From Candidatus Thiomargarita nelsonii (GTDB lineage Bacteria > Pseudomonadota > Gammaproteobacteria > Beggiatoales > Beggiatoaceae), in contig LUTY01000001.1 in assembly GCA_001640045.1 (NCBI GenBank), positions 1-14,810 of the forward strand: a DNA stretch of 14,810 nucleotides, read 5' to 3'. Shown here piece by piece: positions 1 through 14,810 of this stretch. The position numbers and the translations under genes are program-made. The notes under the pieces are model-generated. The model searched no databases, was not told where the DNA came from, and worked only from the letters and a program-made list of their open reading frames with translations. Every line of letters starts with the position of its first letter. The first letter of the stretch is position 1.

Positions 1-1715
1 CTTTGTACCTGTACCAGCAGTGATGAATGCCCACCCAATTCAAAAAAATTGTCATAAATACCCACTTTATCCAACTGTAGTGCTTGTTGCCAAACTTGAG
101 CAATGCGTTGTTCAGCCTCAGTTTGTGGCATGACATAAGTAACATATGACTCCCCAGTTTTGTAGAGGCGGGAGGCGTGGTCATCGCTGAAAGGATTAGG
201 AATAAATTTGTCTGTTGTTTGAAGGTCATTTCGCCTAACGGACAGTTGCTCCTGCTCTGCTTCTGTCAAGCATGGCAATTCCGAGAGTCGTTGATTCGGA
301 TTTGTGACAATGCCTTCTAGTAACATCTGAAAATGTTTTATAAACCGAATAATTGTGTCTGCATTAAACAGAGCCGTTTTGTATTTCAATCGTCCAACTA
401 ACCCTTGTTCTGTTTTTTCTATCAGTAGGGTCAAATCAAACCTTGTCGTCCCGTCATCAATATTGAAGGTGTTTACGGTCAGATTTGAAAGCGCTGGGGG
501 TGGGGACGGAACATTCAGAAAGGTGAACATCACTTGGAATAGCGAGGCATGGTTCAAGCTCGGCTCAAGTTGTATCAACTCCAGCAGTTTGTCAAAGGGC
601 CAATCTTGGTGAGCATAGGCACCCAAAACGACTTCACGAACCCGACTCAACAGTTCTAGGAAACTGGGATCGCCTGAAAAATCAGTACGCAGGATCAGAA
701 GGTTGGTGAATAATCCGATTAGTTCCTTGAACGCCACTCTATTGCGTCCGTCGGCAGAGGAAAACACAAAGATATCTTCCTGTTCTGTGTAACGATAGAG
801 TAGGGTTTTGAACGCGGCTAACAGCATCGTGAATAGGGTAACACCCTCCCGCTGGCTTAGTACTTTGAGCGCATCGCTCAGTTCCTTGGAGAACTCAAAA
901 GATTGTTTGGCACTTTGAAAAGTGTTAGCTGCCTGTGGTGAGCGATCTGTAGGAATTGGCAACAGATGAAAACGGTTACCAAGTTGTTGCTTCCAGTAGG
1001 ATACCTGAGTTTGCTGAACATCACTCCGCAACCACTCACGTTGCCAGTGGGCAAAATCCGCGTAATGAATAGATAATTCAGAAAGGGGAGAAGGTTTCCC
1101 AGCATAAAAGGCTTCGTAGAGTACCGACATTTCCCGGTTGAGCCTTCCCCATGACCGATCATCAATGACAATTTGATGTATTGTCAAGAGCAACACATGT
1201 TTTTCTTTACCTAAACGTAACAAGGTAGCTCGCAACAATGGACCTTGGGCCAAGTTGAATGGCCTCTGGATATCCTCGGTAGCTAATTGCAAAACCTTAG
1301 TTTCCTGTTCCTGTTCGGGAATATCTACCACCGGTAGTATCAAGGTCATATCTGGAACAATGCTTTGGGTTGGTTGCCCATTTATGGTTGGAAAGGTGGT
1401 TCGTAAGATTTTATGACGCTGCACTATTTCGTTGAGGCTCTGCTCCAGTGCTGCTACGTTGAGCGAGCCGGTGATGCGGTAGGCTCTAGCTCTATTATAA
1501 GCGGGACTGTCAGGCTCTAACTGATTGAGAAACCAAATCCGTTGCTGGGCAAAAGAAAGTGGTAATTCTCTATCTTGTGATACAGGCTGTAAAGGCGGTG
1601 CATGACGCTGTAACTTCTTGATAATTTTAACGGCATGCAGCATTTCTGTCCAACCTTCGTCTAACTTGGTCTGGCCTGGTGGAATTTTATAACTTATAGG
1701 ATATGTAATGCTCAT
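1..1715 (-). CDS. Nonribosomal peptide synthetase, condensation domain plus carrier domain, adenylation domain missing (partial)
   Basis: Open frame from ATG at 1715 to the left edge, 571 codons visible, with AGGTGAG about 9 nt upstream as ribosome-binding site. Residues about 48-480 form an NRPS condensation domain: LSFAQQRIWFLNQLEP (C1), RHKILRTTF (C2), the C3 region IHQIVIDDRSWG at 179-190, ADGRNR...ELIGLFTN (C4), HQDWPFDKLLE (C5), SLFQVMFTFLN (C6) and RFDLTLL (C7). The canonical C3 motif is HHxxxDG. Here the second, catalytic His is Gln181 and the Gly is Asp186. After the normal post-C linker (LTEAEQEQL) there is no adenylation domain. Only a stub resembling A7 (NPFSDDHASRLYKTGE, near residue 510) remains, followed by the PCP lead-in (MPQTEAEQRIAQVWQ) and a carrier domain with GGHS, phosphopantetheine Ser564. 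It would be a C-T module fed with substrate in trans. The gene may carry further modules to the left. Confidence 0.93.
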   Translation of the reverse strand, partial: MSITYPISYKIPPGQTKLDEGWTEMLHAVKIIKKLQRHAPPLQPVSQDRELPLSFAQQRIWFLNQLEPDSPAYNRARAYRITGSLNVAALEQSLNEIVQRHKILRTTFPTINGQPTQSIVPDMTLILPVVDIPEQEQETKVLQLATEDIQRPFNLAQGPLLRATLLRLGKEKHVLLLTIHQIVIDDRSWGRLNREMSVLYEAFYAGKPSPLSELSIHYADFAHWQREWLRSDVQQTQVSYWKQQLGNRFHLLPIPTDRSPQAANTFQSAKQSFEFSKELSDALKVLSQREGVTLFTMLLAAFKTLLYRYTEQEDIFVFSSADGRNRVAFKELIGLFTNLLILRTDFSGDPSFLELLSRVREVVLGAYAHQDWPFDKLLELIQLEPSLNHASLFQVMFTFLNVPSPPPALSNLTVNTFNIDDGTTRFDLTLLIEKTEQGLVGRLKYKTALFNADTIIRFIKHFQMLLEGIVTNPNQRLSELPCLTEAEQEQLSVRRNDLQTTDKFIPNPFSDDHASRLYKTGESYVTYVMPQTEAEQRIAQVWQQALQLDKVGIYDNFFELGGHSSLLVQVQ

Positions 1716-1896: not shown

Positions 1897-2430
1897 TCAA
1901 TACTCTATTGGGAAATATTCATAAATTAAAAATTGGTGTTCTTTTGTTTTGATAATTCGTCTTCTAAACACAAAACGGTTCTCTTTCTCTACTCCGAAAA
2001 TTATTGGAATATCTTTTCCTAAAAGATTTTCTATACAAATTGTTGTAAATTCAAGTTCGGTTTCATTCCAGCGTCTCAAAATAAAATTTCCCAGCGATTC
2101 ATTAGAAGCTTCTAAAGACGCTTCTAATTCCTGTGCGATAAGATGATCATTCCCATGTATAAGATTCAGAAACGATTCAGCATATATGGCGGGAGTCTTT
2201 TCTTTATCGGTTAAATTAAAGCGAATTGCTCTATAGTAAGTCGAATGGAAGTTTTGATTCCATATTATACGACTTTTGTTCTCTTCAAATTCAAAACTTC
2301 CCGGTTTGATCGTATGATTTAAAACCTCAAATTGGAGCGATGGAAACCTATTGAGTAAAGCAGTACTTATAATATTGACATTAACAAGGGGCTCGATTTG
2401 GGAAAATTTTTCCATAACAGACTCTCTCAT
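1897..2430 (-). CDS. Chorismate pyruvate-lyase-like (UbiC/DUF98 fold) protein
   Basis: A 177-residue protein. The first ATG (2430) has no clear ribosome-binding site. The ATG at 2415 (protein starting MEKFSQIEP) has GAGAG about 6 nt upstream and is the likelier start, giving 172 residues. By eye it follows the order of E. coli UbiC: YYRAIRFNL matches the central strand containing the UbiC Arg, NESLGNFILRR matches the TPLGRYLF segment, and the C-terminal FVFRRRIIKTKEHQFLIYEYFP matches [22 protein letters not shown]. Glu171 lies at the position of the UbiC catalytic Glu. UbiC cleaves chorismate to 4-hydroxybenzoate and pyruvate. If active, this protein could supply an aromatic acid to the AMP ligases of the cluster, but that is inference. 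The fold is shared with UTRA ligand-binding domains, so a non-catalytic role is possible. It lies 17 nt downstream of the SGNH gene, consistent with one operon. Confidence 0.6.
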   Translation of the reverse strand: MRESVMEKFSQIEPLVNVNIISTALLNRFPSLQFEVLNHTIKPGSFEFEENKSRIIWNQNFHSTYYRAIRFNLTDKEKTPAIYAESFLNLIHGNDHLIAQELEASLEASNESLGNFILRRWNETELEFTTICIENLLGKDIPIIFGVEKENRFVFRRRIIKTKEHQFLIYEYFPIEY

Positions 2431-2447
2431 ATCTGAACACGTTGATT

Positions 2448-3542
2448 TTATTGTCTTCCAACTTCTTGGGTAATCGTATCTCCGAGGGCCTCTCCAATGC
2501 AGTCAGCCCAAAGGGTATTCATTACTCTATTAGGATGCCCATCAACCGGCACTTGTCTCTCAGACGTTAGTGGGTACACACAGTCAATGTAATTGATATG
2601 GTTGTTTTTTAAGAAGTTTATATAGTGAAATTTTGTTTCTGTGTTGCACGAAAGCAGAATGACGGCAAATTGAGTGCCTTTTTTTTGGCACAGACTATTC
2701 ATTTCTAACAGCAATTTCTCCGTTACTCTTCTTTTTTGGGAATCTCTCCCCCACGTTTTTAACTTCATGTATAGTGTTTGAAAAAAATTGACAGTCGCTA
2801 ATTTTTCTGTCAATGGCCACTTTGGATAAATTTCGACTGGATGTTTTATAAGGTTGTTTTCACTATCGATTGTACAATATGGAATGCCCCTATACTCTTG
2901 TCCTATCCTTCGTCCCACCCTTTTTAACAATTCAGAAGGTGCTATATTGCGAACTTCATGGTGTCCAATGAATCCATAGAGGATCATTATGGGAGGTTCA
3001 GATAACATTTTTGATGAGAAAAGCCTTTCAATGGTCAATAAAGACTGATATGTTCCATAGCCACCTGTTCCAAAATTTAACACTTGTACAGAGGGATATC
3101 TGCTCTGTAATTTCCATGAAAAAGTTTCATTGTCGGATATTGCATATCCTTGAGTAAAAGAACCGCCTACAATAACAAGTTGACGTCGTTTGTCGAGCTT
3201 TTCCGCCCCGGTAGTTCGCATTCCTCCGGGCAAAAAAGTCAACGTTCCTCCCGTCGAAAAAGTTAGTTCCTTTGAATTTAGAGCATAAGCAGGAACAGCA
3301 TATTTCATTTTCTTTGAAGAAGTATAATCGGGAAAAAAGTATTTTCCTTCCCTATTCTTCCAACCTAGTTTGGGATCAGATTCGTGTACTGGATTAAAAC
3401 TACGAAGTTTATAAGGTGGATGCCCTGTAAGTCTAAGCAAGAGTTCACTGCAAACGACAATGGCAATCAGACTAAAAAAAACCGTGATGAGGGAAAATAT
3501 TCGTGTTTTATAACGTTTAATGAGCATTTTTGATGTTTTCAC
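2448..3542 (-). CDS. Membrane-anchored SGNH/GDSL hydrolase-like protein, copy A
   Basis: A 364-residue protein read from a GTG at 3542. An ATG at 3527 (MLIKRYK) has AGGTG 12 nt upstream and may be the true start, since MLIKR is where similarity to copy B (4926-5969) becomes continuous. One hydrophobic segment (about residues 15-35) follows a basic start, suggesting an N-terminal membrane anchor with the enzyme domain outside. SGNH landmarks are LVIVGGSFTQGY with nucleophile Ser128 (block I), NFGTGGYGTYQ (block II), LYGFIGHHEVRN where GxND is usual (block III), and a C-terminal DGHPN in place of DxxH (block V). Copy B has a proper DRWH at this point, whereas copy A is one residue shorter and reads VDGH, so its catalytic Asp-His spacing is altered. 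SGNH enzymes hydrolyse or transfer esters such as acetyl or acyl groups; the substrate here is unknown. Confidence 0.8.
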   Translation of the reverse strand: MKTSKMLIKRYKTRIFSLITVFFSLIAIVVCSELLLRLTGHPPYKLRSFNPVHESDPKLGWKNREGKYFFPDYTSSKKMKYAVPAYALNSKELTFSTGGTLTFLPGGMRTTGAEKLDKRRQLVIVGGSFTQGYAISDNETFSWKLQSRYPSVQVLNFGTGGYGTYQSLLTIERLFSSKMLSEPPIMILYGFIGHHEVRNIAPSELLKRVGRRIGQEYRGIPYCTIDSENNLIKHPVEIYPKWPLTEKLATVNFFQTLYMKLKTWGRDSQKRRVTEKLLLEMNSLCQKKGTQFAVILLSCNTETKFHYINFLKNNHINYIDCVYPLTSERQVPVDGHPNRVMNTLWADCIGEALGDTITQEVGRQ

Positions 3543-3655: not shown

Positions 3656-3707
3656 CGGAGCAGTTGTGCCGGGTTTATCGGCACGGTTTATCGGCAAACC
3701 TGCTCCG
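3656..3707 (+). repeat. Nested inverted and direct repeats in the leader of the beta-propeller gene
   Basis: An 8-nt inverted repeat, CGGAGCAG (3656-3663) and CTGCTCCG (3700-3707), encloses two copies of GGTTTATCGGCA (3672-3683 and 3685-3696, period 13). A second hairpin, GTGCCG (3666-3671) with CGGCAC (3679-3684), overlaps the first copy, so alternative pairings are possible. The element ends 6 nt before the AAGGTAAG ribosome-binding site of the next gene. It could be a structured mRNA leader, a protein-binding site or the remnant of a small mobile repeat; nothing decides between these. Confidence 0.5.
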
Positions 3708-3726
3708 GCAAAATAAGGTAAGAACC

Positions 3727-4704
3727 ATGTTATACCAGAAATTCAGGCCCCATTCATCATCCAATCCCCTATCACTGCGTTTGCGCCCACGGTTTCGCGC
3801 GGTTTGTCAAGTGCTAAAATCATTGTTCCTATTCCCACGGACAGGTGCCCTGCTTACTGCTGTATTAGTGAATCTCACACTATTAGCCGGTGATGTTCCA
3901 TTTTCCACTGAATATACATATGCTCCTCCTCTTGATGAAATTTCCGGTATCGCTGTGAGCAGGAAAAATACGGATGTATTGTGGATACATAACGATTCTG
4001 GCGACCAGAATCGCATATACGCGATTAATTCACAAGGTAACTACCTTGGTGCTTACTATATTGATGATGTTTCATCGCGTGATTGGGAAGACATAGCTGT
4101 CGGTCCTGGACCCATAGACAGCGAGCATTACATTTACATTGGTGATATCGGCGATAACCAGGCAGAGTATGATTTCAAGTACATTTATCGTGTCCGTGAA
4201 CCATACGTCGATTTCAACCAATCTCCCTTAGTATCAACAATTTCTGATGTTGAAGTCATCAAGTTTCAATACCCTGATGGAAAACGGGATGCCGAAACAC
4301 TTATGGTTGATCCTCTTACAAAGGATATTTATATCGTCTCAAAAAGAGAAAGCAATGTTAGAGTTTACCGTGCTCCTTATCCGCAAGCTACCAATAGCAC
4401 CATAACACTTGAACATGTGGCTACACTTAATCTAGATGGTCAGACGGTTGGTGGCGATATTTCTCCATCAGGACTTGGAATATTACTGAAAACTTATAGC
4501 AGCATTTATTACTGGTGCCGTATGTCAGGACAGAAATTGTGGCAAACTTTTAAAAATAAACCAGTAACAGTGCCATATACTATTGAACCGCAAGGTGAAG
4601 CTGTGGGTTGGATGTCTAATGGACTTGGATATTACACAATTAGCGAAGAGCCAGATGGTAATCCCGCACACCTTTATTTTTATCCTATAATGATTTTAAA
4701 ATAG
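3727..4704 (+). CDS. Exported beta-propeller-like protein of unknown function
   Basis: Start chosen at ATG 3727 because AAGGTAAG lies about 6 nt upstream. A TTG 21 codons earlier (3664) falls in the repeat element and lacks a ribosome-binding site. The protein has 325 residues. About 30 basic residues precede a hydrophobic stretch (LLTAVLVNLTLLAG), so it looks exported with a long signal peptide or single anchor; a GTG at 3811 would give a more typical signal. The body has motifs of a recurrent bacterial propeller-like family: ISGIAVSRKNTDVLWIHNDSGD, RDWEDIAVGPGP, YIGDIGDN, YRVREP, DAETLMVDP and IYIVSKRE. These repeat Asp-rich strand-turn elements, and I know no enzymatic activity for them. 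It is the only plus-strand gene, lying between the two SGNH paralogs, and may be an insertion unrelated to the biosynthetic genes. Confidence 0.75.
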   Translation: MLYQKFRPHSSSNPLSLRLRPRFRAVCQVLKSLFLFPRTGALLTAVLVNLTLLAGDVPFSTEYTYAPPLDEISGIAVSRKNTDVLWIHNDSGDQNRIYAINSQGNYLGAYYIDDVSSRDWEDIAVGPGPIDSEHYIYIGDIGDNQAEYDFKYIYRVREPYVDFNQSPLVSTISDVEVIKFQYPDGKRDAETLMVDPLTKDIYIVSKRESNVRVYRAPYPQATNSTITLEHVATLNLDGQTVGGDISPSGLGILLKTYSSIYYWCRMSGQKLWQTFKNKPVTVPYTIEPQGEAVGWMSNGLGYYTISEEPDGNPAHLYFYPIMILK

Positions 4705-4925: not shown

Positions 4926-5969
4926 TTATCTTCCAACTTGGGTAATCGTATCACCAAGGGCTTCTCCAATGCAGTCAGCCCAAAGGGTATTCATTACTCC
5001 ATTGGGATGCCACCTGTCCCAGCTCAATCGCTTATCAGGCGTTAGTGGGTACACGCAGTCAATGTAATTGATATGGTTGTTTTTGAGAAATTTGATGTAA
5101 TGAGATTTGGTTTCGTTCTTGCAGGAAAGCAGAACTACGGCAAATTTTGTGCTGTTATTTTTGCACAGACTGTTCATTTCTAACAGCAATTTCTCTGTAA
5201 CTCTTCTTTTTTGGGAACCTCTCCCGATGGTTTTAAGTTTCATATATTGTTTTTGAAAAAAATTGACAATTGCCAACTTTTCTCTCAACGGCCACACTGG
5301 ATAACTTTCAGGAGAATGTCTTATGAGGTTGTTTTTATAATAATCAATTGTACAATATGGAAGGCTGCTATACTTTCGTGCTATTGCTTCTAACCATTCA
5401 TAAGGAGCTACATTGCGAACTTCATGGTGTCCGATGAATCCATATAAAACTATTACGGGAGGAACAGATTTTGAGAATATTCTTTCAAGGGCCAATAAAG
5501 ATTGGTATGTTCCATAGCCAGAAGTTCCATAATTTAACACCTGGACGGATGGATATTTGCTCTGTAATTTCCAAGGGTAAGTTTCATTATCGGACACCCC
5601 ATATCCTTGGGTAAAAGAGCCACCTACAATGACAAGTTTACGTGGTTTGTCAAGCTGTCCCCCCCCTGTAGAGCGCATCCCGCCTGGCAAAAAAGTCCAT
5701 GTTCCTCCCGTCGAAAAAGTTATCTCCTTTGAATTTTGAACATAACCAAGAATAGGGTATTTTCCTTCTTTATTTTTCCAACCTAATTTTGAATCCTGTT
5801 CGTACATTGCTACTGGATTAATAGCACTATCTCTTGGCCTATAAGGTAGGTGCTCTGTCAGTCTAAGCAAGAACTCACTGGAAACGATGATGACAATTAG
5901 ACTAAAAAAAAACGTGATTATGGAAAATATTAGTTTTTTATGACGTTTAATGAGCATTTTTGATATCAT
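4926..5969 (-). CDS. Membrane-anchored SGNH/GDSL hydrolase-like protein, copy B
   Basis: Close paralog of the 2448-3542 gene, nearly collinear throughout. Start taken at ATG 5969; a GTG directly before it (5972) and an ATG at 5957 (MLIKRHK) are alternatives, and the ribosome-binding site is weak for all. From 5969 the protein has 347 residues: a basic N-terminus, one hydrophobic segment (about 13-31), then LVIVGGSFTQGY with Ser118 (block I), NYGTSGYGTYQ (block II), LYGFIGHHEVRN (block III variant) and DRWHPN with Asp318 and His321 (block V). Here the DxxH dyad is intact, so this copy has the better case for catalysis. Compared with copy A it lacks a short stretch after the GKY element (copy A residues about 68-86). 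Esterase or acyl/acetyl transferase chemistry outside the membrane is likely; the substrate is unknown. It lies 69 nt downstream of the HemN-like gene. Confidence 0.82.
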   Translation of the reverse strand: MISKMLIKRHKKLIFSIITFFFSLIVIIVSSEFLLRLTEHLPYRPRDSAINPVAMYEQDSKLGWKNKEGKYPILGYVQNSKEITFSTGGTWTFLPGGMRSTGGGQLDKPRKLVIVGGSFTQGYGVSDNETYPWKLQSKYPSVQVLNYGTSGYGTYQSLLALERIFSKSVPPVIVLYGFIGHHEVRNVAPYEWLEAIARKYSSLPYCTIDYYKNNLIRHSPESYPVWPLREKLAIVNFFQKQYMKLKTIGRGSQKRRVTEKLLLEMNSLCKNNSTKFAVVLLSCKNETKSHYIKFLKNNHINYIDCVYPLTPDKRLSWDRWHPNGVMNTLWADCIGEALGDTITQVGR

Positions 5970-6038
5970 CACTGATTTAACTTTATGATTATGGACAACA
6001 ATTTACTTTTCTATAATATAAATAGTGAATAAACAAAA

Positions 6039-7319
6039 TCAAGACATTTCCATAAGACATCTCGTCAATCTTTTGCCCACATAGTCTCCATAAAGAATGC
6101 CTTTTGAGGTCAACTCAATCTCTTTTTCGGATGTAGATATAAAACCCTCTAACTCAAGCTGCTTAATAGTTGAAGCACAAAGTGAATCTAACTTAAAGCC
6201 ATGCTTCCTTTGAAATTCCTTCAAATCCAGACGAACTAACTTCATTTCCAACGCCACATTTCGTATCATTCGCTCCAAACTAGTCAACTGATAACCACGA
6301 CTAAGAGGAAGTTCATTCGCTTCTACAGCCGCTACATACCTTTCCAAATCATTAGTATTTTGAAGAAGCCCATAATCACCAAGAAAACCAAATGCTGACG
6401 CACCAAAACCGTAATAATCGTTCCCTCGAAACATATTGATAGGGTATGTATGCACATAGTGCCCCATTTTTGTAAATGTAAAAGAACTCCACGGGAAATA
6501 TTGCGCTTGCTCAAACTGTTCTATAGCATACCGCATGAATTCAATCTCCTGAGCATCAGAGGGTAATTCAAGCGTCTTTTTACGGACACCAGCAGAATAC
6601 GCCGTATTTGCATATAGCTCCATCTTATATACGGTTATGCTTTCTATATTTGTAGAAAGGGCACGTTTTATAGTATCGGCCCATGTTTCTTGAGTATCGC
6701 CGGCAAGTCCACTGAGAAGATCAATATTGACAACAGCACCCGTGGCTTTAGCCATTTCTATGGCCTTCAAAGCCTTTTTCTCTGTGTCCTTCCGCCCAGA
6801 CAGCTTGACAACTTCGTCGCAAAACGATTGGATTCCAAGACTGATACGATTCACGTCAAACTTTTTCAGGATATCCGCTTTTTTCTCAGTGAGTGTGACC
6901 GGCTCTGCCTCAACTGTAAATTCATGTTCATCATCAATACTTAGATTTTCATGGAGACATTCAATGATTTTGGATAAATGACCTTCCTTCAGAAGGGTTG
7001 GCGTACCACCCCCGAAGTAGATAGAAACAACATGCTTATCCTTTAAGTGAAAACGCTTTGCCGCAATCTCAATTTCCCGACAAACCGCATCCACATATCT
7101 ATCTATCTCAGGTCTTTCGCTTCCTTTCAGGGTAATGGTTCTGTAGTAGCAATAAGCGCATCTTTGTATACAAAAAGGGATATGCACGTAAACGCTTATT
7201 GGCTTCTCGGTTAACATCTCTTCGACTGCCGATTTTTTCCAATATTGAAAGCTTGGATAGTTGGTAACAAACCCTTTTCTGGAAGGCTCAACGTAGGATT
7301 CTTCTGCTTTTATATTCAT
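6039..7319 (-). CDS. HemN-like radical SAM enzyme (coproporphyrinogen dehydrogenase/class C methyltransferase family)
   Basis: A 426-residue protein from ATG 7319, with AGTGAGG just upstream. The radical SAM cluster motif is CIQRCAYC with Cys50, Cys54 and Cys57, inside the HemN-type context ISVYVHIPFC...YC. It is followed by YFGGGTPTLL (GGGTP at 103-107), the conserved EAEP strand, VNRISLGIQSF, and NIDLLSGLAGDTQETW. The C-terminal portion has the HemN winged-helix-like end (RMIRNVALEMKLVRLDL, then LELEGFI). The family includes the oxygen-independent coproporphyrinogen III dehydrogenase HemN, the haem chaperone HemW, and class C radical SAM methyltransferases or cyclopropanases in natural-product pathways (NosN, Jaw5, C10P, YtkT). 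Lying beside a carrier protein, a tailoring role such as methylation or cyclopropanation of a carrier-bound or peptide substrate is more likely than haem synthesis. That choice is inferred from context. Confidence 0.85.
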   Translation of the reverse strand: MNIKAEESYVEPSRKGFVTNYPSFQYWKKSAVEEMLTEKPISVYVHIPFCIQRCAYCYYRTITLKGSERPEIDRYVDAVCREIEIAAKRFHLKDKHVVSIYFGGGTPTLLKEGHLSKIIECLHENLSIDDEHEFTVEAEPVTLTEKKADILKKFDVNRISLGIQSFCDEVVKLSGRKDTEKKALKAIEMAKATGAVVNIDLLSGLAGDTQETWADTIKRALSTNIESITVYKMELYANTAYSAGVRKKTLELPSDAQEIEFMRYAIEQFEQAQYFPWSSFTFTKMGHYVHTYPINMFRGNDYYGFGASAFGFLGDYGLLQNTNDLERYVAAVEANELPLSRGYQLTSLERMIRNVALEMKLVRLDLKEFQRKHGFKLDSLCASTIKQLELEGFISTSEKEIELTSKGILYGDYVGKRLTRCLMEMS

Positions 7320-7400: not shown

Positions 7401-7691
7401 TCATTTCAGTCCAATGGTTCCCGTAGGTTCAACTTTGTTGTCCACCTTGGTAGAAATAAAGTCGGCCAACGTTTTGATATTCCTAAATAACTCAGAGTTC
7501 AACTCGGAATCAGAAAATTCAAACCCAAAGCGATCTTCAAGCAAGTTTATAAATTCCATAATGGCCATAGAGTCAAGTCCAATCCCATCTTCAAACAAGG
7601 ATGCCGTCTCATCAATTTCTTCTAGCTTGATGTTTGCATCTATTTCATCCGCGATAATATGCTTAAGTTGGTTAATCATATTTTCAATCAT
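7401..7691 (-). CDS. Discrete acyl/peptidyl carrier protein
   Basis: Start chosen at ATG 7691 (MIENMINQLKHII), which has AGGAG 9 nt upstream. A longer frame reaches 7748 but its extra 19 residues are Lys/Glu-rich and overlap the ligase gene. The protein has 96 residues. The phosphopantetheine attachment motif is GIGLDSMAIMEF with Ser41, flanked by a typical four-helix carrier pattern (LFEDGIGLDS, LLEDRFGFEFSDSEL, LADFI). It carries an acyl or aminoacyl group as a thioester on a phosphopantetheine arm. The neighbouring AMP ligase ends 22 nt upstream, so ligase and carrier are translated from adjacent sites and are very likely partners. The phosphopantetheinyl transferase that would activate it is not in this window. 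Confidence 0.92.
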   Translation of the reverse strand: MIENMINQLKHIIADEIDANIKLEEIDETASLFEDGIGLDSMAIMEFINLLEDRFGFEFSDSELNSELFRNIKTLADFISTKVDNKVEPTGTIGLK

Positions 7692-7713
7692 TCTACGTTT
7701 CTCCTCTTTTTCC

Positions 7714-9222
7714 TTAGCAGCATGTTTTCTGGCATCGTGCATGGTCATTGGATGCCATTTCTACAAGTGCCTGTCTATCTACTTTACCGTTAGGCAATGT
7801 TGGCAACGAGTTAACAACACATACATTGTCTGGAATAGCGTACTTAGGCAAAACATCAAAACACGCTTTTCTAATTTTAGTGCCGCTGGGTGTGGTGCCT
7901 TGAGTTGGAACACAAAATGCCACAATTTCTTGCCCTCGCTTAGTCTCTCCCCTCGCCACCACAACGACACGCTCTGTACTTTCAATCGTCTCCATTGCCT
8001 GTTCTATTTCCGAAAACAAGACGAGAAAACCACTTCTGTTCACGCTATGGTCACATCTACCAAGCACTTCTATATACCCATCTTGCTGTATTCTACCCAA
8101 GTCTCCTGTCTTAAACCAATCATACTGGCTCGACACACCCTGACTAATCATTTTTCCATTTCCGTCTACATATCCTTCAAAACCGTACTCATGCTTGCAA
8201 CAGAGTTCACCAACTGCCGTTATCTCCTCACCAGTTTCAGAGGTTTTTTCGTTTAGGCGCATTTGCACACCCGGCAGAGGCTTTCCAGCACTTATGGCAC
8301 GCACATCAATGGGATCATCCGGATCATAGGTAGCTATTGCGCCCATTTCAGTGCTTCCGTATAGATTTAACAGGCAGCCAAAACGGGACTCAAAGCTCGA
8401 AAATGTATCTTCTTTAATTCTATCGCCAGCAGTCACCACGCGCTTGTAGGCTCTTGAAGTTTTTAGTCCCTTCAGTAACATTTCACATAACGTCGGTGTC
8501 AGAAAAGCAACATTTTGATTGAACTGCCTTTCTCTCTCTATATATCTAATGATATTAGAGTTTTCCTGCAAGTCAATTGATGCCCCAACCACAATACCGG
8601 GAAGAAAGGCAGCACCTAGACCATACATATGAAAAATGGGAACTGGGATGGTTATTCTGTCATCCCCCTCCAATCCAAACCTTTTTACGCAGTTCAGAAC
8701 GTTACCAAGGAGCTTTGCGTGTGAGTGCATCACGATTTTTGAGGCTCCCATGCTACCTGAGGTCCTTAAATACAGTTTCCCCCTGGCATTGTCTTCCCTA
8801 TTATCCTGTTCACAATTGCATTGCTCATTCCTTTCAATGCGTAAAAATTTCTCTGGATATCTATTACACTCCACCAGTTCATTGTTCAAAGAACTTTCAA
8901 TCATGAGTCGGTATTGGCAGAATTTCGGTATCAAGGGCTTAAAGCCAAGCTCTTTTCCACTGTGGCACACCGGCGGTAACAAGACAAAACTATAACCCTT
9001 TTTTAATAGGTACAACAGGGTTAAAGCACCCGGCACAGAATTGACGCATTCCAATGCAAGGTTATTTTCAATACCGATTTTTATTTCGGCAAAATACTTG
9101 TCAATCCCTTCAAAAACAGTCGGCATTTCCTGATAAGAGCAAGTTAGCTGCCCATCGGTCAAAGTGTTCTTTTGAGAATGTACAGAGCTTACGACTTGAC
9201 CAATAATTTCTTCAAATGTCAT
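7714..9222 (-). CDS. AMP-dependent acyl/aryl ligase (adenylation enzyme), complete
   Basis: A 502-residue member of the acyl-adenylate-forming superfamily, from ATG 9222 with GAGGTG a few bases upstream. Core motifs are the P-loop LRTSGSMGASK (152-162, ending in the usual Lys), NLYGSTE (286-292), FKTGD (370-374, the ribose-binding Asp), LGRCDHSVNRSGF (387-399, hinge) and LPNGKVDRQAL with the C-terminal catalytic Lys480. The middle contains IPVPIFHMYGLG, the usual A4 region. It should activate a carboxylic acid as its adenylate and load it onto the carrier protein encoded immediately downstream. The length and the absence of fused C or T domains indicate a free-standing ligase rather than an NRPS piece. 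I cannot name the substrate. A candidate is the aromatic acid a chorismate-lyase-like protein might produce, but that is inference. The final 18 residues (SNDHARCQKTCC) look unconserved. A close paralog lies at 14226-14810. Confidence 0.92.
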   Translation of the reverse strand: MTFEEIIGQVVSSVHSQKNTLTDGQLTCSYQEMPTVFEGIDKYFAEIKIGIENNLALECVNSVPGALTLLYLLKKGYSFVLLPPVCHSGKELGFKPLIPKFCQYRLMIESSLNNELVECNRYPEKFLRIERNEQCNCEQDNREDNARGKLYLRTSGSMGASKIVMHSHAKLLGNVLNCVKRFGLEGDDRITIPVPIFHMYGLGAAFLPGIVVGASIDLQENSNIIRYIERERQFNQNVAFLTPTLCEMLLKGLKTSRAYKRVVTAGDRIKEDTFSSFESRFGCLLNLYGSTEMGAIATYDPDDPIDVRAISAGKPLPGVQMRLNEKTSETGEEITAVGELCCKHEYGFEGYVDGNGKMISQGVSSQYDWFKTGDLGRIQQDGYIEVLGRCDHSVNRSGFLVLFSEIEQAMETIESTERVVVVARGETKRGQEIVAFCVPTQGTTPSGTKIRKACFDVLPKYAIPDNVCVVNSLPTLPNGKVDRQALVEMASNDHARCQKTCC

Positions 9223-9269: not shown

Positions 9270-10301
9270 CTAAAACGCAATTTTCAGCAACCGTTGCAAA
9301 TCTTTTTGACTCAAATTTTGGAGCCTTGTATTTAATTCTCCACTTTCAATTCGTTCTTTTACAATCTGGGGAAAATGCCAATCAAGTTTTAGTTCATCTC
9401 GTAATTCCTTTTTACTAAACCAGAAAATTTCTGCATACTTTTCTGCCAGTTTTCTCCAATCCAATTTCTCAATTTTGGTAGTAATAGAGGTTATTACCTC
9501 TGACAATGCCATACATAAACTATTAACTTCATCCAAACTCAAGGGATTTCCATCTCCGTCAATATAAAAATATCTGAGACTATCTATATAATTTCTGCCC
9601 TGTTTGATGGATAGGTGATTGAAAATGTCAATTGTTAACCCTAAATCTTTGTAGGCCGTTACAATTTTGATACTCCCATATTTCAAAGATTTACATTCAT
9701 CCCATAACTCTACCGCGTTTAAACAAAAAAATTCTCTTATCAAAAAATCTTCTTTATAGTCAGGATGTCTATATGGCCCATGAAACTCCTTGCTGAGTCC
9801 ATGCGCTCGGAAACAGACAACTTCAGAATATGCCCACAAAATCCCACATAATTTATGGACAATCATAGAATTGTCCTTTGTGGTAGAAATCATCTTTGAA
9901 ACATCAATGGCATCCCTGAATTTGATTGGGGATAATATAATATTTTTCCCATCCCTGTTACACAGGTTGCCATACTTCAGATTTTCAACCATTGAAAGTA
10001 AAAGAATGACATATTTCCGCTGTTTTTCCCTTGACATTCTCAATTTTTTCATACCTTGAACAGAGGGCATTATTAATCTAATAATACGTGCAGGGGTTTT
10101 CAACATGGTCGAAATATCCATTTCGTCAAACCCTTTTTCTTCTAACTTGTCGATATCATTCAGTAACTCCTCAAAAAAGATATCCATAAAAAGATGAGTA
10201 ATGGAATTAATATCGACAGGCCAAGTATTTTTCCCATCTCTGGCCCATGTTTCAGATACAGCATTTTTAAAATCCTCAATTATCTGTTTTTCTGTTTCCA
10301 T
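9270..10301 (-). CDS. Protein of unknown family, 343 residues, in biosynthetic operon
   Basis: Start at ATG 10301 with a strong AAGGAG 7 nt upstream. I do not recognise the family. The protein is soluble, largely helical in appearance, with no signal peptide or membrane segment. The most conserved-looking stretch is AHGLSKEFHGPYRHPD (166-181), rich in His and aromatic residues, followed by LIREFFCLNAVELW (187-200), then a beta-rich part (IKIVTAYKDLGLTIDIFNHL, 211-230) and FYIDGDGNPLSLDEV (245-259). The tail is charged and helical. Two His (167, 174) and nearby acids could bind metal or act in catalysis, but this is only suggestive. It sits 47 nt upstream of the AMP ligase and 100 nt downstream of the PhpK-like gene, so it is co-directional with both. 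A TATAAT at 10333-10328 has only a poor -35 partner. Confidence 0.8.
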   Translation of the reverse strand: METEKQIIEDFKNAVSETWARDGKNTWPVDINSITHLFMDIFFEELLNDIDKLEEKGFDEMDISTMLKTPARIIRLIMPSVQGMKKLRMSREKQRKYVILLLSMVENLKYGNLCNRDGKNIILSPIKFRDAIDVSKMISTTKDNSMIVHKLCGILWAYSEVVCFRAHGLSKEFHGPYRHPDYKEDFLIREFFCLNAVELWDECKSLKYGSIKIVTAYKDLGLTIDIFNHLSIKQGRNYIDSLRYFYIDGDGNPLSLDEVNSLCMALSEVITSITTKIEKLDWRKLAEKYAEIFWFSKKELRDELKLDWHFPQIVKERIESGELNTRLQNLSQKDLQRLLKIAF

Positions 10302-10401: not shown

Positions 10402-12018
10402 TTATGATGATTTACGGAAAATTGAAGCTAATCTCCTTTCTTGCTCACTCGTCTCTGGAATTTTGTCGTTATTAAAACTTTGCACTAACATCTCTTGTGC
10501 AATACTTGTAAAACCTGTGATCTGTTCCAGTGATATGCCCTTTCCCATCAAATACGGTATTGCCCAAAAATAGAACATATACGAAGGCAGCACCACAGAC
10601 CCCCTGATGGTTTTATACATCAATTCCACCATATTACTTGCCACCTTCCAATCCATTGAATTATGTTTCCAACTATAACCCTCGCCGATAAGTCCATGTT
10701 TTTCTGCATGTTTATGAATAGGCGTTTTTTTGGCATAATAGTAAAGTTCTGCGCGGTAAAATGCAGGGGAACTCTCTTCGAGAAAATTTATAGTATTTCT
10801 GAGAGTTTCCTCTGTTTCTCCCGGAAAACCCACGATAATTGAAACAAAGGTCGTAATACCCCGTTCTTTAAGCTTGTGAATGCCGTATTTATATTTATCT
10901 ATCTTAGCAAATTTATTCATATTATTCAAAATGGTTTGGTCGCCAGACTCTATACCTAAGAACACCCCCTTGCAACCACTGTCACGCATCAAATCAAAAG
11001 TTTCATCATCAGAGTGTGAACATCTAAAATAGGAAAACCAATTGAAATCAAATTTATATCGGATCATCATTCGGCATATCTCTTTAAATCTTCGCAATGG
11101 TACATTGAATGTATCGTCAATAAAAATGATATTTTTTACCCCTGATGCATGGAACATTTTTAATTCATCCTCAACAACCTTCAAGCTGGTAAAATTTAAT
11201 GGCCCCGCCACAACAGGATACTGGCAAAAACTACACTTAAAGGCACAACTTCGAGCAGTTCGCGTCTGTGTTGTTGGGGTGTAAAACTCCCTTCTAAAAT
11301 ACCGCCATTCAACACTGTTTTCGTCCATGTCGTTACTTTCAATCATCCTTTTTGTTCTATGAAAAGTATTATTATCAAACGTATAAATCAAATTGGGAAT
11401 GTCACTAAAGTTTTGTTTTTTCTGGTTTCGCAATTCACGGAGAATATAAGATAAGGTTGTCTCCCCTTGAGAATCGTAAACATAAATATCTGCACCGATT
11501 CTTTTAAAATTCAGATGTTGTGTCTTGCTATCATAGCCAGAACAAATGTTATATATATGCGGCCCACCAACAATTATTTTTGTTTGGGGACTATGGTGTC
11601 TAACAAAATTAATAATATCGATAATAGGACTATTATCGACATAAAAAGTCGTTGTTATGGCTACTGCACTTGGTGATTGCACTAGCAGGTCTAACAATCG
11701 ATCTTTTTCATAATTAAAAAAGTTAATGATCTCAACCTTAAATTGTCGTTTACGAAGAAAACTCTTCAAATAACTGACACCTAAACTCGGTAACTCACAC
11801 ACATGAAAATGCCGATCTTGGCCCGTTGTCTCTTTTAAGATTTGATTCAGCACGTCCATGTAGGGCGTTCTTACACCACGAAAATAGACTGAATTAGTCT
11901 TTAATTGCCGGTAAGTTCCGGAATAGGCTTGCATTTTTCTTAAATTGTTTTCTACCACCTGGAAACCGATATCATTGTAACCAATAATTATGCAATCCAA
12001 ATTATCGTAACGTGCCAT
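10402..12018 (-). CDS. Cobalamin-type (class B) radical SAM protein, PhpK-like
   Basis: Start chosen at ATG 12018 (MARYDNLDCIIIGYND) because GGGAGG lies about 10 nt upstream; another ATG at 12039 lacks one. The protein has 538 residues. An N-terminal Rossmann-like region (about 70-200, including SAVAITTTFYVDN and KIIVGGPHIYN) corresponds to the B12-binding domain of this class. The radical SAM domain has CAFKCSFC with Cys258, Cys262 and Cys265, then IIFIDDTFN, GVFLGIESGD and FVSIIVGFPGET. The opening LDCIIIGYNDI and the later SGTYRQL resemble PhpK, the cobalamin-dependent P-methyltransferase of phosalacine biosynthesis, and related proteins annotated with natural-product clusters. Class B enzymes typically methylate unreactive carbon or phosphorus, though other reactions are known. 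The PhpK resemblance is from memory of the family and not from an alignment. It follows the split phosphotransferase block directly. Confidence 0.85.
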   Translation of the reverse strand: MARYDNLDCIIIGYNDIGFQVVENNLRKMQAYSGTYRQLKTNSVYFRGVRTPYMDVLNQILKETTGQDRHFHVCELPSLGVSYLKSFLRKRQFKVEIINFFNYEKDRLLDLLVQSPSAVAITTTFYVDNSPIIDIINFVRHHSPQTKIIVGGPHIYNICSGYDSKTQHLNFKRIGADIYVYDSQGETTLSYILRELRNQKKQNFSDIPNLIYTFDNNTFHRTKRMIESNDMDENSVEWRYFRREFYTPTTQTRTARSCAFKCSFCQYPVVAGPLNFTSLKVVEDELKMFHASGVKNIIFIDDTFNVPLRRFKEICRMMIRYKFDFNWFSYFRCSHSDDETFDLMRDSGCKGVFLGIESGDQTILNNMNKFAKIDKYKYGIHKLKERGITTFVSIIVGFPGETEETLRNTINFLEESSPAFYRAELYYYAKKTPIHKHAEKHGLIGEGYSWKHNSMDWKVASNMVELMYKTIRGSVVLPSYMFYFWAIPYLMGKGISLEQITGFTSIAQEMLVQSFNNDKIPETSEQERRLASIFRKSS

Positions 12019-12090
12019 TTTATATGTACCTCCCATCATAAAAACAGAAATTCAATACACCTATTTGTCGTGGTGCAAAGATTGAGAGAA

Positions 12091-12450
12091 TCAATCCCCT
12101 TTTTTTCTGTCTCCAGAACCATAAATAATCCCTTTAGTCGCATCTAAAGTTATAATCATATTTTCCTCTAATAGCTTTGTTGCTCTTTCAGCGTCAGCTA
12201 TGCAGGGTATACCCATTTCCATAGATACGATACAAACGTGTGTGAGCATCCCTCCCCCCTCGCAAATAAGACCCGATGAATTCATCACTCCAACCGCAAA
12301 AGCAGGGCTGCTATTCCTGACTACCATTATATCCCCACTTTTAATCTTATTAATATCAGTAGAATTTTTCACTATCTTTACAGAGCCAGTGACAAGCCCG
12401 GGGGATACAGATATGCCTTTAACAATGACGACGGAATTAGCTTCCTTCAT
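12091..12450 (-). CDS. Free-standing PEP-utilising phosphohistidine (swivel) domain
   Basis: A 119-residue protein from ATG 12450, with GGGAG 8 nt upstream inside the end of the preceding gene; the two overlap by 14 bases. It is the mobile domain of PEP synthase/PPDK-type enzymes: VKGISVSPGLVTGSVKIV (10-27), SGDIMVVRNSSPAF (38-51), and the phosphohistidine motif GGGMLTHVCIVSMEMGIPC with His71. The canonical motif is GGxTSHxAIVARELGIP; the usual Ser/Cys before His is Thr here, and His is kept. In dikinases this His is phosphorylated by the ATP-binding domain and then passes the phosphate to the acceptor. Here it is a separate polypeptide, and its ATP-binding partner is almost certainly the product of 13266-14114. 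The total length is only the swivel domain; no PEP/pyruvate-binding TIM barrel is encoded nearby. Confidence 0.9.
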   Translation of the reverse strand: MKEANSVVIVKGISVSPGLVTGSVKIVKNSTDINKIKSGDIMVVRNSSPAFAVGVMNSSGLICEGGGMLTHVCIVSMEMGIPCIADAERATKLLEENMIITLDATKGIIYGSGDRKKGD

Positions 12451-13273
12451 TTAATAATCTCCCTGCCTTTAAAATATCCCAATTTTCAACCACTGAGTTT
12501 CCACTAAATCTGCTCTGCACTTTGTAACTCATCATATTAAAATTTATCCCCTTATTATTAAATAGTGGCTTTAATGTATTGGTAATTGTACCCTGCCCGT
12601 CTACCAGTATAATATCATTAAATATATAATCAGGTTCTGCCCATGTAATAACCCCATCTTCTTTAAGAAAGAAGACTACTTCAGACACGATATTCTCAAA
12701 GCTGTTGGAAATACTTAAGCTTGACAATACTTTATGAAGATATATTCTGGACACTTTGTTATGAAAGATGTCTTTGAGTTCACTGGCCCCTTTTATAACA
12801 AAATTAAGGATACTCCCATTCACATTCCTTTTTTTCATCTGGTTACGTTTTATGTCCCAGTACTTTATCGCTTCATCTGTGATAGAAAGTCCCGCATTAA
12901 ATATATTCACAATATCACCAGCACTTTTATTTTTATCTGTTATGTAATGCGTTGAGATACTTTGAATAAGATCACAATTCTCTTCATCAGGCTCTGCTAC
13001 AAAAACAGAGTCATATAATTCGGATAATAAAAATACACAAAACCCCATACCCGGGCCAATTGTTAAAACTGAATCCGATGGTGCAGTGGATAAAATTAAG
13101 TGCTTATGTGAGTCGTAGCCACCTTGGATATTGTTATTCAAAATATCATACACATCAGATAAACTTTTAAGTCCCCACTTGGTTACAAAACTCCGTTCAT
13201 TTCCAGAATTTTTAATAGCAGAACACAGTTTATTAGAAAATTCATCAAGTTTTGGAAAATGGATTTCACACAT
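12437..13273 (-). CDS. Class I SAM-dependent methyltransferase-like protein
   Basis: A 278-residue protein whose ATG (13273) overlaps the stop of the upstream gene (ATGTGTGA), implying coupled translation; its own ribosome-binding site is weak. Residues 69-78 (VLTIGPGMGF) match the glycine-rich SAM motif I, and FVAEPDEEN (91-99) gives the acidic residue ending strand beta-2 (Glu94). RIYLHKVLSSL and VVFFLKEDGVITWAEPD fit motifs IV to VI of the Rossmann methyltransferase fold. The N-terminal 60 residues and C-terminal part are unfamiliar and could form the acceptor-binding region. It lies exactly between the genes for the ATP-binding and phosphohistidine domains, where fused phosphotransferases carry their substrate domain. 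It may methylate the same substrate, or bind it for phosphorylation. I cannot name the substrate. Confidence 0.75.
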   Translation of the reverse strand: MCEIHFPKLDEFSNKLCSAIKNSGNERSFVTKWGLKSLSDVYDILNNNIQGGYDSHKHLILSTAPSDSVLTIGPGMGFCVFLLSELYDSVFVAEPDEENCDLIQSISTHYITDKNKSAGDIVNIFNAGLSITDEAIKYWDIKRNQMKKRNVNGSILNFVIKGASELKDIFHNKVSRIYLHKVLSSLSISNSFENIVSEVVFFLKEDGVITWAEPDYIFNDIILVDGQGTITNTLKPLFNNKGINFNMMSYKVQSRFSGNSVVENWDILKAGRLLNEGS

Positions 13274-14114
13274 ATTTTGTTATTGCTCGTGATTGAAGAA
13301 TAAATATTTTATCATCTTTGGCTAAGGCCCATTCTATATCTTGTGGCCTACCATAATGAGACTCAATTTTTGTTCCAATCTCACATAACTCAGTTAATTT
13401 TTCGTCAGTCAATGAGTAAGATTTTCTCTGTTCTTCTGAAGTGCTTTCTTCTAAAGCACCAGATTCACTGCCTAGTATTAAAATATTTTTTTTACCAAGG
13501 TTTTTTGTTATCACTTGATAAGGTTTTTTAGAAATTTCAAAATGGTCAGGAGTGACTCTTCCTGATACAACAGTTTCCCCACATCCCCAATTTGATTCAA
13601 CAATCATTACGTCTTTATTTCCTGAAAAAGGATTGGCTGTAAAAAGAACACCGGCTGATTTTGGCTCTATCATAGTTTGAACAATGACAGCCATTTTCAG
13701 ATTATCTTCAGGGATATTCATTCTTTTTCTATAAACCATTGCCCTTTCAGTAAATAGGGAATTCCAACAATCAACAATTTTTCTAATAATTTGATCTTCA
13801 CCTTTAACATAAAGGTATGAATCGTATTGTCCAGCAAAAGATGCTGTATCAATATCCTCTGCTGAGGCAGAAGAACGAACTGCAACTCGATCATTTCCTA
13901 TATTTTTTGCAAGATTATTATAGCACTTTACTATTTTTTCTTCTACTTCTTTAGGTATTTTATTTTTTTCCTTATATTGAGAGTAAGCATCAACCGTGAC
14001 TATAAAGCCAGCCGGAACCGGAAAAAAAGCCTTTACCAGTTCAATAAGATTTTTTCCTTTACCTCCACTTTTACCGGGTTCTACTTTATCAAAAAATTCA
14101 ATTGTTTTCATCAT
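13266..14114 (-). CDS. Free-standing PEP-synthase-type ATP-binding domain (split dikinase/phosphotransferase)
   Basis: Start taken at ATG 14114 (a second ATG follows at 14111); a TTG at 14123 is less likely, and no strong ribosome-binding site is visible. The protein has 282 residues and is the N-terminal ATP-grasp-like domain (PPDK_N) of PEP synthase, rifampin phosphotransferase and related dikinases. Motifs are GKSGGKGKNLIEL (14-26), FPVPAGFIVT (31-40), VAVRSSASAED (77-87), ASFAGQYDSYL (91-101), AGVLFTANPFSG (154-165), ESNWGCGETVVSG (173-185), and QDIEWAL...IFILQSR (258-276). The residues expected for ATP binding and transfer, Lys20, Arg80, Glu261, Gln274 and Arg276, are present. It should use ATP to phosphorylate the His of a swivel domain. 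Both the swivel and acceptor domains are missing from this chain, and the swivel is encoded two genes downstream. The full-length family is usually 700-900 residues. Confidence 0.9.
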   Translation of the reverse strand: MMKTIEFFDKVEPGKSGGKGKNLIELVKAFFPVPAGFIVTVDAYSQYKEKNKIPKEVEEKIVKCYNNLAKNIGNDRVAVRSSASAEDIDTASFAGQYDSYLYVKGEDQIIRKIVDCWNSLFTERAMVYRKRMNIPEDNLKMAVIVQTMIEPKSAGVLFTANPFSGNKDVMIVESNWGCGETVVSGRVTPDHFEISKKPYQVITKNLGKKNILILGSESGALEESTSEEQRKSYSLTDEKLTELCEIGTKIESHYGRPQDIEWALAKDDKIFILQSRAITKYV

Positions 14115-14225: not shown

Positions 14226-14810
14226 TTAGCGACTGGGTGCCATTTTTAAAAGAGCCTGTCTATCTACTTTACCATTGGGCAATGTTGGCAATGAGCTAAC
14301 CACAAATACGTCGTCTGGAATTGCGTAGTTTGGCAATCTCTCAAAACACGCGCTGCGAATTTGATCGCTACTAAGTGTGGCTCCTTGACTCGGAACACAA
14401 AAGGCCACAATCCGTTGCCCCCGCTTACTCTCTCCCTTTGCTACCACCACGACACGCTCTGTGTCTTCAATTTTCTCCATCGCTTTCTCTATATCCGCAA
14501 ACAAAACGAGAAGGCCATTTCTGTTCACGCTATGATCACATCTACCGAGTACTTCGATATGTCCGTTTTGCTGAATCCTACCCAAATCTCCGGTCTTAAA
14601 CCAATCAGACTGACTCATCATGTTCAAACGATTGTTGTTCCCATTTTCGTCCACATATCCGTCAAAACCGTATTCGTGTTTGCAACAGAGTTCACCAATG
14701 TCAGCATTCATATCATCATCAGGCTCAAAACCTTTATCCTTGAGACGTATCTGCACACCCGGCATCGGTTTTCCAACCGTGATAGCCCGCCTATTGATAG
14801 GGTCATCTGG
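14226..14810 (-). CDS. AMP-dependent acyl/aryl ligase, second copy (C-terminal part, cut by window edge)
   Basis: The frame is open to the right edge (it reads PDDPINRRAITVGKP before the internal Met at 14765), so this is the C-terminal 194 residues of a longer gene. It is plainly a paralog of the 7714-9222 ligase, with the same order of motifs: ELCCKHEYGFDGYVDENG, DWFKTGDLGRIQQNGHIEVLGRCDHSVNR, RVVVVAKGESKRGQRIVAFCVP, and the C-terminal LPNGKVDRQAL with the catalytic Lys. The ribose-binding Asp (TGD) and hinge are kept, so it looks functional where visible. No carrier-protein gene follows it, unlike copy 1. It may load the same carrier with a different acid, or be a recent duplicate. Its N-terminal P-loop half lies outside the window. 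Confidence 0.92.
   Translation of the reverse strand, partial: PDDPINRRAITVGKPMPGVQIRLKDKGFEPDDDMNADIGELCCKHEYGFDGYVDENGNNNRLNMMSQSDWFKTGDLGRIQQNGHIEVLGRCDHSVNRNGLLVLFADIEKAMEKIEDTERVVVVAKGESKRGQRIVAFCVPSQGATLSSDQIRSACFERLPNYAIPDDVFVVSSLPTLPNGKVDRQALLKMAPSR

Follow-up and report, generated by a model that had tools for sequence, protein, structure and literature searches.

A probable new form of split small-molecule dikinase with a free-standing phosphohistidine swivel protein in Candidatus Thiomargarita nelsonii

The window analyzed here, 14,810 nucleotides in length, is one entire contig of the Candidatus Thiomargarita nelsonii genome, a fragmented assembly (4.83 Mb, 3164 contigs, 52.67% complete). 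The window ends are the contig ends, and the gene neighborhood is readable only between them. All thirteen genes followed are encoded on the minus strand, and the plus strand carries an ORF at 3664-4704. From high to low coordinate, a partial second AMP ligase is followed by the genes for an ATP-grasp protein, a methyltransferase-like protein, a phosphohistidine swivel protein, a B12-binding radical SAM protein and a 343-aa protein. The order then continues with an AMP ligase, an acyl carrier protein (ACP), a HemN/HutW-like radical SAM protein, an SGNH-like protein and its paralogue, a 177-aa protein and an NRPS condensation protein.

14226..14810, minus strand: second AMP-forming ligase, C-terminal part, truncated by the contig end (AMP-binding_C, 44.9 bits)
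13266..14114, minus strand: free-standing ATP-grasp protein (PPDK_N), 282 aa (Pfam, 294.6 bits)
12437..13273, minus strand: class I SAM methyltransferase-fold protein, 278 aa, without a Pfam family (fold of the predicted model)
12091..12450, minus strand: free-standing phosphohistidine swivel protein (PEP-utilizers), 119 aa, catalytic His71 (Pfam, 66.6 bits)
10402..12039, minus strand: B12-binding radical SAM protein, TIGR04479, PhpK subfamily (619.6 bits, cut-off 600)
9270..10301, minus strand: 343-aa conserved protein, candidate acceptor or catalytic partner (no family or solved fold matched)
7714..9222, minus strand: stand-alone AMP-forming acyl/aminoacyl ligase (Pfam AMP-binding, 111.4 bits)
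7401..7748, minus strand: stand-alone acyl carrier protein, 115 aa (PP-binding, 43.6 bits)
6039..7319, minus strand: HemN/HutW-like radical SAM protein (TIGR04107, 213.6 bits, under the cut-off of 400)
4926-5972 and 2448-3542, minus strand: two SGNH-like proteins, paralogues (GDSL matches under the Pfam cut-off)
3664-4704, plus strand: 346-aa ORF between the SGNH-like genes (no Pfam match at E<=0.001)
1897-2430, minus strand: 177-aa protein before the NRPS gene (no Pfam or NCBIfam match at E<=1)
3..1715, minus strand: NRPS condensation domain protein, truncated by the contig end (Pfam Condensation, 346.1 bits)

The original prediction had described a dikinase split over three overlapping genes. 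The three ORFs (13266-14114, 12437-13273 and 12091-12450, minus strand) lie in the claimed order and overlap by exactly 8 and 14 bases. The B12 radical SAM gene sits between the swivel gene and the 343-aa gene. Two pairs of similar genes also mark the window. The AMP ligases at 14226-14810 and 7714-9222 flank the set, share 70.7% amino acid identity over 191 aa (DNA, 77.3% over 577 columns) and read as a duplication. The SGNH-like pair is 67.5% identical and 1383 bases apart, with the 346-aa plus-strand ORF in the gap.

The ATP-grasp subunit is encoded by its own ORF, with its own start and stop, and scores far above the PPDK_N cut-off of 27 bits. It carries a GGKG motif from position 17 and an RSSA motif from position 80 and, read from motif positions, K19, R80 and S99 are the likely equivalents of Lys22, Arg117 and Thr136 of RPH-Lm, residues whose roles are given in an excerpt of PMC4844700, with the Lys and Arg positioning the ATP phosphates. 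The PPDK_N profile is covered at positions 5-41 and 74-311 in the window protein, and at 5-48 and 74-312 in its relative at a second locus (L003, below). Because the two proteins align gaplessly across the unmatched region (profile positions 42-73 and 49-73, respectively), the shortened N-lobe is common to both. The protein aligns with the PEP synthase of PDB chain 8a8e through the ATP-site motifs. Among NCBIfam models, PEP synthase scores highest (277.4 bits), followed by PRK06241.1-3 (270.9), RPH (250.4), PigC (240.0) and RedH (213.5). PRK06241.1-3 is named PEP synthase, but its swivel match lies at the C-terminus (788-886 of 891), an RPH-like layout, and the near-tie of 277.4 vs 270.9 bits would hardly decide between the two arrangements. 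Other PPDK_N proteins of the window's genome (G000) and of two further genomes (G488 and G489) were considered as layout guides and rejected as too distant to inform.

The swivel protein passes the Pfam PEP-utilizers cut-off of 23.1 bits. Its stand-alone relatives comprise 20 database proteins of 110-138 aa, including the window's own, from a search that accepts 0.55-1.75x the query length, so that fused relatives could not appear. His71, G66 and G67 are invariant in all 21 aligned sequences (these 20 and that of locus L004, below). With K19, R80 and S99 present in the ATP-grasp protein and H71 in every aligned swivel, the catalytic residues of both phosphotransfer proteins are indeed retained, as had been claimed. 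The swivel scores 86.6 bits against PEP synthase, 72.4 against PRK08296.1-5, 64.9 against PRK06241.2-2, 54.3 against PigC, 52.0 against RPH and 41.0 against RedH. It thus leans toward PEP synthase over the models with a C-terminal swivel (72.4 bits and less), and 8a8e is the top PDB sequence match for both the ATP-grasp and the swivel protein.

The middle protein matches no Pfam family at E<=1. Its predicted model (pLDDT 89.6) has a class I methyltransferase fold, and the fold matches listed are all methyltransferases or methyltransferase-fold domains. In alignment A1 (61 of 65 rows used; P0033, P0057, P0064 and P0065 (partial) left out), motif I GxGxG (G73/G75/G77) is conserved in 60/61 relatives, with one gap, and the acidic EPD (E94, D96) in 61/61. 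(A second alignment, A2, uses 66 of 70 rows, leaving out P0126, P0128, P0130 and P0131.) The GxGxG motif and the acidic residue that closes strand 2 are SAM-binding features of such enzymes. On this sequence evidence, the protein is very likely to be a genuine class I SAM methyltransferase. The original prediction allowed it to bind a substrate, methylate it, or both; with a complete SAM site it looks like an enzyme rather than a mere binding domain. Its placement in the acceptor position is not upheld: the RPH-like gene order is the one support, and the 343-aa protein is a second linked candidate.

The 343-aa protein has a confident predicted model that matched no solved fold, and no known family was found for it. 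Residues K109, E160, H167 and H174 are invariant among its aligned relatives. We think that it belongs to the set as a fourth member, overlooked in the original prediction, which had counted a nearby PEP/pyruvate-binding domain or other acceptor as evidence against itself. No PEP/pyruvate-binding domain was matched in the 14 window proteins scanned against Pfam. That domain, the acceptor of PEP synthase, is C-terminal there and comes after the swivel; the 343-aa gene has the corresponding place behind the swivel gene in L004, and the neighborhood may well encode another acceptor. A profile of the 343-aa protein gave no matches in 396 genomes from the phylum of G488, among which there was no positive control. 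Four distant relatives (P0132, P0133, P0134 and P0135) share 35-37% identity; their longest contigs match no listed methyltransferase in size, and they perhaps represent a second type of gene set.

A pattern scan of genome contigs yielded two readable loci. L003, from an Acidobacteriota MAG (G488), encodes an AMP ligase (cut), an ACP, a HemN/HutW-like radical SAM protein, a repetitive ORF, the ATP-grasp protein and the methyltransferase, where the contig ends. L004, from a Candidatus Aminicenantes MAG (G489), encodes the methyltransferase (cut), the swivel, the 343-aa protein and an NRPS with three condensation stretches. The ATP-grasp and methyltransferase genes adjoin in L003 (9-base gap), as do the methyltransferase and swivel genes in L004 (16-base overlap), and the gene set is therefore not a chance arrangement. 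Identities to the window are 54.7% for the ATP-grasp protein (278 aa), 51.8% for the ACP (85 columns), 50.6% for the HemN/HutW-like protein (415 columns) and 40.7% for the ligase (226 columns) in L003, 55.9% for the swivel and 36.4% for the 343-aa protein in L004, and 55.1% (L003) and 41.7% (L004) for the methyltransferase. The window's genes for the ligase, the ACP, the HemN/HutW-like protein, the ATP-grasp protein, the methyltransferase, the swivel, the 343-aa protein and the NRPS all recur in at least one of the two loci; the B12 radical SAM gene recurs in neither. The gene set is real and is linked in independent genomes.

Linkage of the dikinase genes to the middle gene is thus conserved on the ATP-grasp side in L003 and on the swivel side in L004. 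Homologs of the middle gene without flanking domains were not seen: both readable relatives (2/2) keep one flank, their contigs ending before the other. The expected recurrence of the triplet is borne out for the pairs but not for a complete triplet outside the window, both contigs being cut; likewise, among the readable contigs, none besides the window carries all four genes. In L003, a repetitive 136-aa ORF with ISPVHY-like repeats (2240-2650) lies between the radical SAM and ATP-grasp genes and is perhaps a non-coding tandem repeat.

Contig sizes extend this picture. Of 65 methyltransferase clusters, 25 have a longest contig of exactly the same size as that of a 343-aa cluster (one is the window, three are megabase-long contigs) and 40 do not; nine shifted controls of the matching gave 0 matches. 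Thirteen of the 20 swivel clusters, window included, match methyltransferase and/or 343-aa clusters in the same way. A swivel and a 343-aa relative are both found on a contig size of 194,973 bases, for which no methyltransferase is listed. Because 90% clustering hides contigs, neither this case nor the 40 unmatched clusters is decisive. If tags are numbered by fives, exactly one would fit between the NCBI locus tags GY950_02195 (methyltransferase) and GY950_02205 (343-aa protein).

The methyltransferase profile matched 1 of 95 genomes near that of the window, namely the window's genome itself. Across its phylum the count was 5 of 398, the further four being weak, partial matches of 19.0-23.6 bits. 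Around G488 and around G489 it matched 2/247 each, G488 and G489 themselves. Full-strength matches among the genomes searched are thus confined to the window's genome, G488 (L003) and G489 (L004, cut by the contig end). The 20 genomes listed for the phylum of G488 (of 396) do not recur in the searches around the window's genome. This suggests, short of proof, that the window's genome and G488 belong to different phyla, and transfer or misbinning is therefore possible.

The B12 radical SAM protein resembles the PhpK subfamily in passing the TIGR04479 cut-off; PhpK proteins are radical SAM P-methyltransferases. Unlike in that subfamily's expected setting, no phosphonate gene was recognized in the window, and the relatives in G001 (same genus as the window), G488 and G489 (558.9-597 bits) adjoin NRPS domains, which makes the P-methyltransferase label doubtful for this part of the subfamily. 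In L004, no PhpK-like gene lies between the swivel and 343-aa genes. Three short contigs (2226, 3110 and 3756 bases) leave 237, 914 and 1545 bases beyond the methyltransferase, swivel and 343-aa genes, less than the 1638-base radical SAM gene; contigs of 3917 and 4191 bases have enough room. Because of this absence in L004 and the lack of room on the three contigs, the PhpK-like gene is probably an accessory insertion in the window and not part of the core.

Comparison with known dikinases defines what is new here. PpsAB, CreHI and HpeHI are described in an excerpt of PMC12167813 as two-component dikinases that pass phosphate from ATP through a phosphohistidine to a small molecule, and the nucleotide motif of the phenolic kinases is said there to resemble that of PEP synthase. 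As in these systems, the window has a separate ATP-grasp protein, and their swivel His likewise carries phosphate to small molecules. The original description of a dikinase split over several genes holds in that the ATP-grasp and swivel proteins are separate ORFs, whereas splitting as such is no novelty, as PpsAB, CreHI and HpeHI precede it. In all three, according to the excerpt, swivel and substrate domain form a single protein (HpeH, 71.1 kDa), whereas the window swivel stands alone at 119 aa; because of this difference, the distinctive feature is the stand-alone swivel with two candidate docking partners. The window genes also differ in their neighbors, a methyltransferase and the 343-aa protein, and in a context suggestive of biosynthesis rather than catabolism. 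In RPH, as excerpted from PMC4844700, the ATP-grasp part comes first, then the acceptor and then the swivel, and the catalytic His is near the C-terminus, whereas the His is central in PEP synthase and PPDK. The window shares with RPH the order of ATP-grasp, middle part and swivel, together with the Lys22 and Arg117 equivalents; unlike RPH, a single chain with a RIF-binding domain, it has three ORFs, the central one encoding a methyltransferase fold. PEP synthase is the best NCBIfam and PDB sequence match of both phosphotransfer proteins (narrowly for the ATP-grasp), yet in the window the parts are separate, the ATP-grasp N-lobe is shortened and a PEP/pyruvate-binding domain was not found. With the methyltransferase as acceptor, the layout would be that of RPH; with the 343-aa protein in this role, it would be that of PEP synthase. 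PasAB, PhtL and Cj1418 are dikinase-like proteins that act, or are assumed to act, on nitrogen (PhtL in a natural-product route, Cj1418 in a capsule route); the likeness is drawn from their descriptions, and the window differs from them in partners and layout. A literature search gave no description of such a gene set among the matches listed, and the searched libraries do not name it either. The set is most likely a new form of split small-molecule dikinase.

The reading that we tentatively favor, with a little less than even confidence, is a dispersed small-molecule dikinase in a biosynthetic cluster that acts on an NRPS-linked building block, the 343-aa protein being the likeliest acceptor. 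It builds on the observed domains, catalytic residues, folds and gene linkage, to which phosphotransfer, the acceptor's identity, the sequence of the steps and a connection with the NRPS are added conditionally. The ATP-grasp protein would phosphorylate the swivel at His71 with the beta-phosphate of ATP. The phospho-swivel would dock on a separate acceptor protein, likeliest the 343-aa protein, which would take the phosphate while holding either a small molecule or an acyl group carried on the ACP. Such an acyl group may be loaded by the stand-alone ligase and ACP; in L003, ligase, ACP and HemN/HutW-like radical SAM genes recur near the ATP-grasp and methyltransferase genes, as in the window. 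The methyltransferase may modify this building block too, either ahead of phosphorylation or following it, and the NRPS would take up what results. The PEP-synthase-like swivel and the order methyltransferase, swivel, 343-aa protein, NRPS in L004 favor the 343-aa protein as acceptor, and on position we prefer it to the methyltransferase. Against this reading stand the near-tie of the ATP-grasp scores and, in the window, the radical SAM gene that parts the swivel gene from the 343-aa gene.

The acceptor could instead be the methyltransferase-fold protein itself, binding the small molecule, taking the phosphate from the swivel, and either methylating that molecule or using its fold for binding only. 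Its gene lies between the ATP-grasp and swivel genes with 8- and 14-base overlaps, which is the RPH domain order (excerpt of PMC4844700), it adjoins the ATP-grasp gene in L003 and the swivel gene in L004, and the ATP-grasp protein nearly ties with the model of RPH-like layout. However, its SAM site is intact, as in an ordinary methyltransferase, its listed fold matches point the same way, and the 343-aa protein is a second linked candidate placed after the swivel in L004; we hold this alternative to be rather unlikely. About as doubtful, and slightly more so, is phosphorylation as activation only, in which a carbonyl or hydroxyl would be activated, the 343-aa protein or an ACP-bound partner would condense or eliminate, and the product would lack phosphorus. 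Phosphorylation is such an activation step in the mechanism of PigC, the prodigiosin-type ligase. Both phosphotransfer proteins match the PigC and RedH models, and the neighborhood contains ligase, ACP and NRPS genes, but PEP synthase outscores PigC for both proteins and no intermediate is known.

Formation of a P-N bond (phosphoramidate), with the methyltransferase perhaps O-methylating the phosphoryl to give a methyl-phosphoramidate-like group on a peptide, appears improbable. It has precedents, each known here from an excerpt, in phenylphosphoamidate synthase PasAB, a related dikinase (PMC7500099), in PhtL of phaseolotoxin, for which P-N formation is assumed by its authors (PMC4530439), and in Cj1418, which belongs to the route that leads from glutamine to phosphoramidate in Campylobacter (PMC11800397); the sequence, however, gives no sign favoring nitrogen as acceptor. 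Least probable of all is a phosphinate or phosphonate pathway in which the PhpK-family protein methylates phosphorus and the dikinase plays a supporting role. The TIGR04479 score speaks for it, as does PEP mutase above the cut-off in 2 of the 4 genomes searched (G001 and G488). Against it, PEP mutase gave no match in the window's genome (52.67% complete) or G489, the radical SAM relatives adjoin NRPS domains, and the gene is missing from L004 and lacks room on three short contigs.

A bolder version of the preferred reading, with the 343-aa protein as acceptor, is rather doubtful: the swivel would be a diffusible phosphate carrier running from the ATP-grasp protein to a new-fold acceptor, with the methyltransferase helping to make a (methyl-)phosphorylated carrier-bound unit for the NRPS. 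In dikinases, the histidine domain that carries the phosphate is mobile but as a rule stays attached to the rest of the enzyme, and the free 119-aa swivel would then be a carrier able to act as an independent protein, as HPr is in sugar uptake. A free swivel with a new-fold acceptor would add a new class to the phosphorus-tailoring enzymes of uncultured bacteria. The methyltransferase and the conserved 343-aa partner, for which no known fold was matched, hint at a tailoring step of which no description was found among the matches listed, making the set a lead to new phosphorus chemistry in such bacteria.

Two further observations concern the radical SAM family. PhpK-subfamily radical SAM proteins with 41-44% identity adjoin condensation-domain proteins at three loci in three genomes (L013, L014 and L046). 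The B12 radical SAM model also gives 35 (G488) and 78 (G489) matches in single genomes, several in open frames of >1000 aa, a sign of radical SAM domains inside very long proteins in these two genomes.
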